The position numbers and the translations under genes are program-made. Below the pieces are notes generated by a model, which was not told the origin of the DNA, did not search any database, and saw only the letters and a program-made list of their open reading frames with translations. Shown here one piece after another: positions 1,758 through 25,930 of a stretch of DNA of 40,203 bases. The stretch spans positions 1 to 40,203 of the forward strand of contig SYMJ01000191.1 of assembly GCA_005805505.1 (NCBI GenBank), given 5' to 3'. The first letter of the stretch is position 1. Every line of letters starts with the position of its first letter. This DNA is from Verrucomicrobiales bacterium (lineage in GTDB: Bacteria; Verrucomicrobiota; Verrucomicrobiia; Limisphaerales; UBA9464).

Positions 1758-1795
1758 AACCCTTGGTCTAAGCCTGCACGCTGCAGCTAGGAAAA

Positions 1796-1925
1796 ACGGG
1801 AGGGCGTGGCGAATTCTTTGGCAGACAAGGTGCAAGCGAGGAGTGCGCCGGTGGGCGGCCCAGAACGAGCGAACAACCGCGCTATTACCTAAAAACAGCA
1901 ATCAGACCGACCAATTTAATAGAAG
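1796..1925. repeat. Degenerate copy of dispersed palindromic repeat
   Basis: The tract shares ordered blocks with the element at 23562-23740: GGCGTGGCGAATTCTTT (one mismatch to the other copy), a GCGAGG block, CGAGCGAACAAC (identical), and GACCGACCAATTTAAT against GACCGATCCAATTGAAT. About 20 bases of the central hairpin are missing and the terminal inverted repeats have decayed, so this looks like an old, deletion-bearing copy. Spurious short reading frames in both copies translate to similar peptides containing RIRHA, which reflects shared DNA rather than protein conservation. Confidence 0.65.
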
Positions 1926-1946
1926 TCGGTCCCAATCAGCGAGTGG

Positions 1947-21639: not shown

Positions 21640-23487
21640 TCATTTGCGACTCTCGCGCCAGTAGGGGCGATCGGCGACGAAGAGATATCCGTTCTCGGGA
21701 TACCGATCACCGAAGGCGAACTTCAGAGGGAAACCCGACGGGATGTTTCCCTGGCGGAGCAGGTAATCCATGTAGAAACGCCCCCAGACGGCATCGGAGT
21801 CGTTCATCAATTTGGAATGCCACAACTGGTCACACGTAATCGAGGTGAGCAGCAGCGCGTTGAACGGACGCTGGAAGTCGTGGATTTGGTAGAAGTCTTC
21901 CTTGGGATCTTGTCCGGCCCGCAAGGTCAACGGCATGGAGTCAAGGTGGCCGTACCAGGCGACAGCCGCCGGCATATCGCTCAAGACCATGGCTCCCGGA
22001 GGGAGGTATCCCAGCAATTGTCGAATGACCGGCAGGTAATAAGGCGGATTGGACATGACCGGTTGGCGGGGCGGCAACAGCGAGATCACGAAGGGCATAA
22101 GGCACAGGGCCAGAGGCACCGCCATCGCCATCCACCGCGCCAACGGAAAAGGAAAGTCGAACGTATCGAGTGCCCACCGGAAGACCACCGCAGCGTAGAG
22201 CCCGGCCAGCGGGACAAACCACGCCAGGAGATTCTCGGAGTTTAGGAATGGGGACTGAGTGGACAAGTGCGTCTGGATCAAGGCCTGTCCCAGCACCAAC
22301 GCCAACAGCAAGGCCAAGAGCAACCAGCGGAACCGGTTCATTCGCGCATCTCCCATGGGCAACAGGAGCCCTACCAGCAGGAAGGCCCCGAACCAATTGC
22401 CGAACATTCGGGGGACGTCGTTGGCGAGGATCGACTGGGAATTGCTCAGGACCTTGGCCAACACCTCGGTCAGGCGCACCCGCGAGAGTTCTGGGTTCTG
22501 GGAACGCTCCAATCGGTCCTCAACAAAACCAAGAGTCCCGGACAGCGGTGCAAGGGTAGCAATGCCCATGGGCAATCCGCTGCGGAGGTAATTGCGGGTC
22601 ATCCAGGGAGCCGTCAGCAGCAGGAACGCCAGCAGGAGGCAACCCACCGTTCGAAGGCGAGCTTCGGCCGGAGCCCACCACCCCACACAAATGCCAATCG
22701 GCAGAACTAGGAATCCGAAGGAGTACGAGATGAGGAATCCGAGCCCGATCAACGCTCCGAGCACGGCCGACCAAAGCGCATATCGAAATGTCACGACCCG
22801 TGGGCGACCGTCTTCGTCCGGGTCGGCGGCCCCGCCGATGCGCAGGGCAACCACGCTGACCGCCACGCACAGCAACCCCAACCACACGGTGGGCAGTCCC
22901 GAGAAGGCGAAATCCCAGTTGAGCTTGGACCCCAAGAACACCACCACCGCCATCACTCCGATGGAGAGTTCAAACCATCGCCGACCCACTTGGAACAGCA
23001 CGAAGGCCAACCCACAAAAACCAATGAAATTGAGGCATCCCACCGCCACCTCGGCCGGCGGCCTGCGACGGGGTCCCGACTCCACACCATAGACCCAACG
23101 GTCTGGCAGCACTTTAAAAAGCACTCCCAACGCGACCGGGTACAGAGGTGGGTGAGAGATGTCGGGATGGGCCGCAGTGATGAGTTGACGCGGATTAACC
23201 CCCTGCTCCACCGCTCGGGGCGACTGGAGATGAAGGCTCAGCGGGCGGATCAACTGAGTGGTGAACCCCCGGCCCTCGGAGAGGTTGCGACCCAACTGAG
23301 CCAGGTCCATGGCCTCGACCGTGCTGAAATTTTTTACTCCATCAAAGTGGTAAAGTCCCAAGGCAATGAGGGTCAGCAGCAGCAAGATGAACCGCTGAAG
23401 CCAAACCCGACCTTCACCTTCTTCAAGGCTGTGGATGAGTTCTTGAATGCCCTTGGGCGGTTCGTTGTACTGCATGTGAGCGGCCAT
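21640..23487 (-). CDS. Polytopic membrane protein, glycosyltransferase family 39-like
   Basis: A 615-residue protein with an N-terminal cytoplasmic stretch, then roughly eleven hydrophobic helices (for example ILLLLTLIALGLYHF and VGCLLLAFLLLTAPWM) and a soluble C-terminal part of about 140 residues. The first periplasmic loop, with STVEAMDLAQLGRNLSEG, resembles the acidic-residue loop of GT-C enzymes (ArnT/PMT type), which use lipid-linked sugars. HPPLYP in the same loop is also typical. The acceptor is unknown. It is followed by priA (16 bp). The start at 23487 has a nearby in-frame alternative (Met5). Family membership is moderately secure; catalytic activity is inferred. Confidence 0.72.
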   Translation of the reverse strand: MAAHMQYNEPPKGIQELIHSLEEGEGRVWLQRFILLLLTLIALGLYHFDGVKNFSTVEAMDLAQLGRNLSEGRGFTTQLIRPLSLHLQSPRAVEQGVNPRQLITAAHPDISHPPLYPVALGVLFKVLPDRWVYGVESGPRRRPPAEVAVGCLNFIGFCGLAFVLFQVGRRWFELSIGVMAVVVFLGSKLNWDFAFSGLPTVWLGLLCVAVSVVALRIGGAADPDEDGRPRVVTFRYALWSAVLGALIGLGFLISYSFGFLVLPIGICVGWWAPAEARLRTVGCLLLAFLLLTAPWMTRNYLRSGLPMGIATLAPLSGTLGFVEDRLERSQNPELSRVRLTEVLAKVLSNSQSILANDVPRMFGNWFGAFLLVGLLLPMGDARMNRFRWLLLALLLALVLGQALIQTHLSTQSPFLNSENLLAWFVPLAGLYAAVVFRWALDTFDFPFPLARWMAMAVPLALCLMPFVISLLPPRQPVMSNPPYYLPVIRQLLGYLPPGAMVLSDMPAAVAWYGHLDSMPLTLRAGQDPKEDFYQIHDFQRPFNALLLTSITCDQLWHSKLMNDSDAVWGRFYMDYLLRQGNIPSGFPLKFAFGDRYPENGYLFVADRPYWRESRK

Positions 23488-23561
23488 TGGACAACAACCC
23501 CACCGGCTTGAAAAGGGGCGTCACGGCAAGTTTGGGAAGTTTATCTGGGGCTGGACGCTCG

Positions 23562-23740
23562 GCCGGAACGATTCAGTTGGGCGGAAAGGGATGGCGTGGC
23601 GGATTCTTTCGCAAGACGAGGCGAGAGCGAGGCGCGGGCCGATAGAAGGCCCAATGGTTGAGACCCGGATCGAGCGAACAACGAAGCTCTTGCGGAAGAA
23701 GACGTAGCCAGCACGACCGATCCAATTGAATCGTTCCGGC
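23562..23740. repeat. 179-bp palindromic MITE-like element
   Basis: The outer arms GCCGGAACGATTCAGTTGG (23562-23580) and CCAATTGAATCGTTCCGGC (23722-23740) are inverted repeats differing at one of 19 positions. Further in, TCTTTCGCAAGA and TCTTGCGGAAGA pair (one mismatch), and the centre is GGGCC-gatagaa-GGCCC. The whole tract is thus one long imperfect hairpin. A diverged relative lies at 1796-1925. It fills most of the gap between the glycosyltransferase and the ABC ATPase, its right arm ending against the latter's stop codon. No coding capacity is credible. It could be a non-autonomous mobile element, a structured RNA, or a transcription-ending hairpin. Confidence 0.75.
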
Positions 23741-24721
23741 TCAACGCCTCTCGAACACCTGCCGGATGATGTCCTCAATAGGGACCTCTTCGACGGCAAA
23801 ATCCTTCACCGGCAGTCGGTCCAGCAGCACCTTGCAAGTGGCGATGACTGATTCCCGGGGCACCTTCAGCCGGGCCAGCGCCGAGCTCTGTTCCAGCACC
23901 TCTCCCAATTCTGCCAAGGGCACCGAAGCGAACCCGGAAGCCTGCTCCAGAGTGACCGTGATAATCTTGAAGCCCGCAAAACGGTCGAGAATCTCGGCCA
24001 AACGCCCGTCAAAGAACACCGTACCCCGATCGATGATGATGACCCGGTCGCACAACTCCTGAATGTCGGCCATGTAGTGACTCGTGAGCAGGATGGTCGT
24101 CTTGCGTTGCCGGTTGTGCTCGCGCAAGAACTCCCGAACCACCTTCTGGGAGACCACATCGAGCCCAATGGTCGGTTCGTCGAGGAAGAGCACCTTCGGC
24201 TGATGAAGCAGCGCGGCGATTAATTCGCACTTCATCCGCTCGCCCAGGGACAGCTCGCGGACCGCGGTGGAGAGCTTGTCGCGCACCCCGAGCAATTCAC
24301 TCATCTCATCGACCGTTCGCCGGAAGGCCTCGGGGGCTAGACCGTAAATGCGCCCATTCAGTTCGAGCGAATCCCGAGCCGGAAGATCCCACCAGAGCTG
24401 GTTTTTCTGTCCGAGCAGGAGGGCGAACTGCCGACGGTAACCATCGGCCCGTTCCCACGGCACGTAGCCCAGCACCGAAGCGGTGCCCGAAGTCGGGTAC
24501 AACAAACCTGCCAGCATCTTGAGTGTGGTGGTCTTGCCGGCACCATTGGGCCCGAGGAACCCCACGAACTCCCCCTCCTCGACCTGGAACGACACATCCT
24601 TCACCGCAAACACCGTCTCGTACTCGCGATGAAACAATCCCTTGAGCGCCCCGGAGAACCCCGGAGCCTTTTTGTAGGTACGGAACGACCGCGTCAGTCT
24701 CTGAACATCGATGAGCGCCAC
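23741..24721 (-). CDS. ABC-2 type transporter ATP-binding protein
   Basis: A 326-residue ABC ATPase. From GTG 24721 the protein begins with a family-like N-terminus (ALIDVQRLTRSFRTYKKAPG). Walker A is GPNGAGKT (57-64), the Q-loop is LLGQKNQLWWDLP, the signature is LSLGERMKCE, and Walker B is VLFLDEPTIGLD, followed by the H-loop LLTSHYM. The LSLG signature and EPTIGLD are typical of the uncharacterised ABC-2 group (COG4586) that usually sits with two permease genes. Here no permease follows: the stop codon directly meets the palindromic repeat. A C-terminal domain of about 85 residues follows the nucleotide-binding domain. The longer frame to 24871 would extend 50 residues without similarity. 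It diverges from the sialidase-like gene. Confidence 0.88.
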   Translation of the reverse strand: MALIDVQRLTRSFRTYKKAPGFSGALKGLFHREYETVFAVKDVSFQVEEGEFVGFLGPNGAGKTTTLKMLAGLLYPTSGTASVLGYVPWERADGYRRQFALLLGQKNQLWWDLPARDSLELNGRIYGLAPEAFRRTVDEMSELLGVRDKLSTAVRELSLGERMKCELIAALLHQPKVLFLDEPTIGLDVVSQKVVREFLREHNRQRKTTILLTSHYMADIQELCDRVIIIDRGTVFFDGRLAEILDRFAGFKIITVTLEQASGFASVPLAELGEVLEQSSALARLKVPRESVIATCKVLLDRLPVKDFAVEEVPIEDIIRQVFERR

Positions 24722-24880
24722 GCCAATGATACTGCAACAGCCCTCACCCCGAGGCGAACCGGGATTCACAGGGAGTCCGCCGTAGAAAACAGAAGATTCC
24801 ACCCGGGGTGGGTCAGCGATCTTGAGCGTTGGATCCATTTTATGACTGAAACTCCGGGAGTTCGCCTCCATGGTTCACCC

Positions 24881-25930
24881 ATGCCCCGCCGGTTTTTGAG
24901 TCTTTTTGCCGTCATCGGATGCGCCTTGGGGGCGCAGAATTTTCCGGTGATCAAGTTGCAGTACTTGGCCGACAAGCCGCCCACGCTGTCCTCCCACGCT
25001 TCGACCATCGAAGAGACACCCCAGGGGATGGCCGCAGCCTGGTTCGGGGGCACCGCCGAACGGGCCAAAGACGTGGTGATCTGGTTCTCCAAGAAACCGC
25101 AGCATCAGTGGCTCAAGCCCGTCGAAGTGGCCCGAGGCACCGAAGACGCGGGCGCCCCGCAATACGCCTGCTGGAACCCAGTGCTCTGGCAGCAACCTGG
25201 CGGTAGCCTGTGGCTCTTCTACAAGGTCGGCCCGAGTCCGGACACGTGGTGGGGACGGGTCCAGGAATCCCAGGACGGCGGGCGCACCTGGAGCAAGTCG
25301 CGCCGATTGCCCGACGGACAAGTCGGGCCCGTGCGCAACAAACCGGTGCTGCTGGCCGACGGCACCCTTCTCTGCGGCGCCAGCTCCGAGGATGCTGGCT
25401 GGCGGCTCCACATGGAGTGGTCCAAACCTCCCTTCACCGAGTGGCATCGAACCGGCGCACTGAATACCGCCGATCAATGGGGCGCGATTCAACCCACCGT
25501 GCTGGTCTGGGACGGCGGAAGCCGCATCCAAAGCCTGGTTCGCACCCGACAAAAGGTGATCGCCGAGCACTGGAGCAGCGATCAGGGCCGCACCTGGACT
25601 CCGCTGGCCAAGACCAGCCTACCCAACCCGAACAGCGGCATTGATGCGGTGCGCCTGCGCGATGGCCGAGCGCTACTGGTCTACAACCCGCTGGCCGAGA
25701 ACCGCAGTGTGATCGGGCTGGCTATTTCGTCGGACGGCAAGTCCTGGAAGCATTTCGCCGACCTTGAAAGCACTCAGGAACCGGGCAAAGCCGACCTCGC
25801 CCACAACCCGGGCGAACTGAGCTATCCGGCGGTGGTGCAGGCCCGCGATGGCAAGGTGCACATCACCTACACTTGGAAGCGCGAAAAGATCCGCCACGTG
25901 ATCGTGGATCCAGCCCGGATCGGGAACTGA
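24881..25930 (+). CDS. Secreted sialidase-like (BNR/Asp-box) glycosidase
   Basis: A 349-residue protein from ATG 24881 with a signal peptide (RRFLSLFAVIGCALGAQ). The body fits the exo-alpha-sialidase six-bladed propeller family: an early Arg-containing strand, Asp-box repeats SQDGGRTWSKSR, SSDQGRTWTPL and SSDGKSWKHF, and the C-terminal YPAVVQARDGKVHITYTW. This subfamily is common in Verrucomicrobia and Planctomycetes and is annotated as exo-alpha-sialidase, though many members may act on other sugars. It probably acts in the periplasm or outside the cell on glycans. An in-frame ATG at 24842 is the main alternative start; the longest frame from 24629 overlaps the divergent ABC gene and is unlikely. 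It stands alone, converging on rpoN. Confidence 0.85.
   Translation: MPRRFLSLFAVIGCALGAQNFPVIKLQYLADKPPTLSSHASTIEETPQGMAAAWFGGTAERAKDVVIWFSKKPQHQWLKPVEVARGTEDAGAPQYACWNPVLWQQPGGSLWLFYKVGPSPDTWWGRVQESQDGGRTWSKSRRLPDGQVGPVRNKPVLLADGTLLCGASSEDAGWRLHMEWSKPPFTEWHRTGALNTADQWGAIQPTVLVWDGGSRIQSLVRTRQKVIAEHWSSDQGRTWTPLAKTSLPNPNSGIDAVRLRDGRALLVYNPLAENRSVIGLAISSDGKSWKHFADLESTQEPGKADLAHNPGELSYPAVVQARDGKVHITYTWKREKIRHVIVDPARIGN

Follow-up and report, generated by a model that had tools for sequence, protein, structure and literature searches.

The window analysed here, the whole 40,203-bp stretch of contig SYMJ01000191.1 (assembly GCA_005805505.1, Verrucomicrobiales bacterium), carries on its minus strand a gene for an ABC transporter ATP-binding protein (PF00005; positions 23741–24871) and a co-directional downstream gene with no Pfam match (21640–23487). 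Between the two lies a 177-bp imperfect palindrome (23563–23739, plus strand), and its insertion lengthens the spacer between these genes. With the CCGGAACGATTCAGTTGGGMGGAAAG end taken as the left one, its termini read CCGGAACGATTCAGTTGG... and ...CCAATTGAATCGTTCCGG, forming 18-bp inverted repeats with one mismatch (left, 23563–23580, plus strand; right, 23722–23739, minus strand). An inner 13-bp block pairs TTCTTTCGCAAGA with TCTTGCGGAAGAA, and the centre reads GGGCC...GGCCC. On the opposite strand, an ORF with BNR repeats (sialidase-like; 24629–25930, plus strand) overlaps the 5′ end of the ABC ATPase ORF.

A family profile built from a 32-row alignment, of which the window copy is one row, matched positions 23563–23739 (nhmmer, E 3.5e-49), and a covariance model matched the same copy with 178.9 bits; together with BLAST copies found genome-wide, these matches identify it as a full copy of a 176/177-bp subfamily. 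The preliminary description of a long palindromic dispersed element is thereby confirmed by the inverted ends, the inner pairing, the fold reported below and the profile match. Its single mismatch in the outer repeats also holds, whereas the length of 19 bp is reached only by counting the flanking G/C, and the interval 23562–23740 overshoots the element by one base on either side. The degraded relative placed 22 kb away is real as well: an old copy left out of the profile lies at 1773–1933 (plus strand; right end uncertain, 1929–1933), matched by the profile at 1774–1924 (nhmmer, E 1.5e-18) and by the covariance model at 1773–1929 (59.5 bits). Its left target repeat is CTAAG (1768–1772), and the right partner is not recognisable.

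As RNA, the region of the window copy folds at −93.6 kcal/mol, compared with −68.2 ± 4.2 kcal/mol for shuffled sequences (z = −6.1), a value that none of 200 shuffles reached. Such a fold might belong to a structured RNA or a regulatory hairpin kept by selection, for example an operon attenuator or an mRNA 3′ protector. The location between two co-directional genes agrees with this, as do the paired positions that change on both sides (covariation of 0.156, against 0.096 when shuffled and at most 0.052 when slid). However, the outer arms should be coupled anyway, since both must fit one transposase, and the inner helix alone is at chance on two stricter measures (reached by 149/500 and 121/500 shuffles). 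No Rfam family scored above its gathering threshold within the window. Close relatives lack an element at this site, and copies have decayed as far as 67% identity. It is therefore very unlikely that selection for an RNA accounts for the element; a conserved RNA role of the MITE hairpin is at most possible.

The palindrome is far from unique in the 3.62-Mb MAG to which the window belongs. BLAST matched 43 places and the covariance model gave 42 matches at ~38 distinct places, with a few places matched on either strand; the genome carries about 40 copies, with identities from 95% down to 67%. The family here is mostly old and decayed. Two copies stand head to tail on contig C92, and deletion derivatives retaining only the outer arms occur on C31 and C41. 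Counting the kin of the window's genome as listed, 16 of 59 relatives carry the family, which was found in 11 of 18 further members of the genus that were sampled, in both sampled genomes of the sister genus g7 and in a few other relatives. A lake MAG from a sister genus (LaPlata-a_bin-0377, G030) holds at least 96 matches, with 40 of 587 first-look candidates scored; the copies sampled there match their consensus at 96% identity and, judged from these sequences, the family has recently amplified there in a burst. In a phylum-wide sample of 387 genomes, matches outside the window's own genome were short and weak, which indicates a narrow spread. Among the matches listed in a scan of named genomes, almost all were in Verrucomicrobiota MAGs, many of them from lakes, and a plasmid collection contained no match to the element. 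On one contig of the lake MAG (G030:C31, L094, positions 1–620), tandem MITEs lie beside a truncated, unrelated DDE_Tnp_1 transposase.

We looked for target-site duplications and found one of 5 bp. The flanks of 99 copies, a set in which orthologous insertions are counted separately, form direct repeats with the consensus CTNAG. The middle base agrees at both ends in 63 of the 99 copies (mean of 26.9 and maximum of 40 in 2000 shuffles), and the flanking 5-mers are identical in 34 of the 99 (shuffle mean of 11.5), with direct-repeat identity peaking sharply at length 5 (0.77, against 0.26 or less at other lengths). Flank pairs that depart from the consensus match too (CTAAA/CTAAA, CTAAT/CTAAT and CAGAG/CAGAG). 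CTNAG as a mere part of a longer inverted repeat was ruled out, because the flanks agree as 5-bp direct repeats, off-consensus pairs included. At the window copy, the left repeat is a decayed CTCGG (23558–23562; CTCAG in the ortholog of G004), and the right repeat is CTCAA (23740–23744), whose minus strand holds the TGA stop codon of the ABC ATPase gene (23741–23743). The divergence of these two repeats counts against an origin by transposition.

The ABC ATPase gene is found across most of the genus. The window's genome and three others (G000, G004, G010 and G014) carry the element at the orthologous site, immediately after the TGA of the ABC gene; the site is empty in seven (G017, G006, G015, G018, G011, G016 and G009), where the next gene follows directly. 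Among the latter, identity of the ABC gene reaches 98% in G017 and 97% in G006. The far-side repeat of G004, read in the direction of the gene, is CTGAG, from which the original target follows as (C/T)TGAG, with the ABC gene's own stop inside it. Two tandem MITEs stand at this gene end in G014 (C182, 26048–26399; L047, L132), compared with one in the window's genome and in G010. A position directly after a stop codon, together with the strong hairpin that would form there, suits a transcription terminator of the ABC ATPase gene, but the element is absent behind a 98%-identical gene in relatives, copies occur in all gene-pair orientations (8 of 39 are divergent), and no U-tract was seen after the hairpin in the window sequence. 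We regard a terminator as extremely unlikely, and the earlier suggestion of a structured RNA or transcription-end hairpin gained no independent support, having neither an Rfam match nor an inner stem above chance on the stricter measures.

We also looked for a transposase with matching terminal repeats. Searching the carriers for DDE transposases revealed a 463-aa protein in G030, flanked by the same ends as the MITE and assigned to the IS1380 family by NF033539 (242 bits; cut-off 180) and PF13701 (131.7 bits; cut-off 34.7). ISs of this family that share the 17-bp ends and the CTNAG duplication occur in G030 and also in less closely related genomes. They include a complete 1.5-kb IS in G053, with CCGGAACGATTCAGTTG ends and CTGAG on both sides, and further IS ends (L102–L104 and L121) flanked by CTTAG or CTAAG. 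The first 17 bp of the window copy's left terminal repeat are this IS end. Among several other DDE transposases retrieved from G030, G047, G010 and G006, matching ends were seen for the L089 element alone; in G030, the motif of a terminal-pattern search was too strict for pairing IS ends. In the window's genome, contigs C237 and C109 break ~130 bp inside the left and the right IS end, respectively, and both ends are flanked by CTTAG, the pattern that a single IS copy would give if assembly had split it. The assembly of this genome contains no complete IS, and most genus-level MITE carriers contain at most IS remnants, both of which weaken the case for current mobility there. A mini-derivative of ~49 bp, little beyond two MITE ends, was observed on C109 (L125, ~1376–1424), arranged head to tail with the right end of the IS, the two having one CTAAG in common; it is an insertion nested in a target repeat that was already present.

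Taken together, a gene-less, non-autonomous MITE mobilised by an IS1380-family element is the best explanation of the palindrome, with a probability of about 0.93. The element is short and multicopy, has terminal inverted repeats and no transposase coding capacity, duplicates its target site, shares its ends with an autonomous element and is polymorphic for presence at an orthologous site (4 occupied, 7 empty). Movement in trans of a MITE-like element, as first proposed, is supported by the copies, the 5-bp duplications, the empty sites and the IS with identical ends. Considering the common ends and target, it is very probably the IS1380 DDE transposase that moves the MITE. This enzyme would recognise CCGGAACGATTCAGTTG at both MITE ends and join them to target DNA cut in a staggered manner around CTNAG, steps whose biochemistry we infer, and gap filling would then copy the 5 bp, the duplication itself being observed. 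Insertion at a gene end would leave the gene with an intact stop on its own side and also duplicate that stop. Being dispersed, palindromic and extragenic, the copies also recall REP/REPIN palindromes moved by a Y1 (RAYT) transposase, and the verrucomicrobium O. terrae is reported to carry GTAG-type REPs (PMC3733652). REP/REPIN sequences are, however, shorter, tagged with GTAG/CGTC and free of target duplications, whereas the family here ranges from 163 to 177 bp, ends in CCGGAACG without a GTAG or CGTC tag and is contradicted as a REP by its clear 5-bp duplications and IS1380 ends, so that this origin is barely conceivable.

The internal sequence of the MITE bears on how the palindrome arose. 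Beyond the 17-bp ends, the left half of the MITE and the left end of the IS agree at ~21 of 28 aligned positions (shuffle p = 0.0005), and the resemblance of the right half to the IS left end is marginal (p = 0.05); the right half shows no resemblance to the IS right end beyond the common 17 bp. Since the left half resembles the IS left end, with marginal evidence for the right half, the palindrome probably arose from the left end of the IS by inverted duplication, with both halves joined tail to tail.

Whatever its middle base, CTNAG holds TAA or TGA on one strand, and thus an insertion at a gene end re-creates a stop. Of the 50 extragenic copies, 14 coincide exactly with a stop, compared with 40 of the 244 unoccupied CTNAG sites outside genes (OR 2.0, p = 0.07). 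Copies are much rarer inside genes than such sites (21/71 versus 1112/1356, p ~1e-20), although these counts use crude longest-ORF gene calls that probably overstate the 'inside' class. A first count made without gene calls (stop in the duplication of 30 of 98 copies) gave way to these figures, chance ORFs having inflated it. The preliminary description had the element fixed flush against a stop codon: flush it is at the window copy, but fixed it is not. CTNAG target choice and selection against in-gene insertions largely explain the stop-flush position. A more adaptive scenario seems unlikely: the transposase family would have settled on CTNAG with the result that insertions at gene ends do no harm, selection or arm-to-arm correction would also keep the inner stem paired, and hosts would gain hundreds of portable gene-end hairpins that tune operon expression.

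Small mobile palindromes of this kind have precedents. RUP, NEMIS, ERIC/RU-1 and Nezha are likewise intergenic, 70–300 bp long, bounded by terminal inverted repeats and mobilised in trans, but differ in being of unrelated sequence and tied to other IS families and targets. Like the MITE, IS1380 ISs such as IS1247 (IR 16/13, DR 5; PMC3281130) have short terminal inverted repeats and a 5-bp duplication, and their transposase is of the DDE type (NF033539/PF13701); unlike them, the MITE has no gene, and its ends and CTNAG target are those of the verrucomicrobial group. MITEPye1 of Paracoccus yeei is also gene-less, hairpin-forming, bounded by direct repeats and shares its ends with a resident IS, but it is linked to IS1182 and present in 1–3 copies (PMC11578231), whereas the present family is linked to IS1380 and numbers tens, probably up to hundreds, of copies. 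MITEs with ends common to an IS are well known, and the family described here is new. The literature searched contained no IS1380-derived MITE, which is weak evidence of absence given that most subscription journals lie outside its coverage. A previously unannotated high-copy palindrome of freshwater Verrucomicrobiota is tied to a likely transposase source, and a stop-containing target offers a simple reason why such elements end flush with stop codons.

Copies of the MITE can also serve as presence/absence markers between close genomes. In these MAGs, contigs break or fold back at such palindromes, and the family probably explains many of the contig breaks. One copy with perfect 52-bp arms (L195) had seemed to reflect arm-to-arm conversion and was rejected, as the start of its contig (CAIRNV010000492.1, positions 1–301) mirrors the flank completely and is an assembly fold-back around the MITE.
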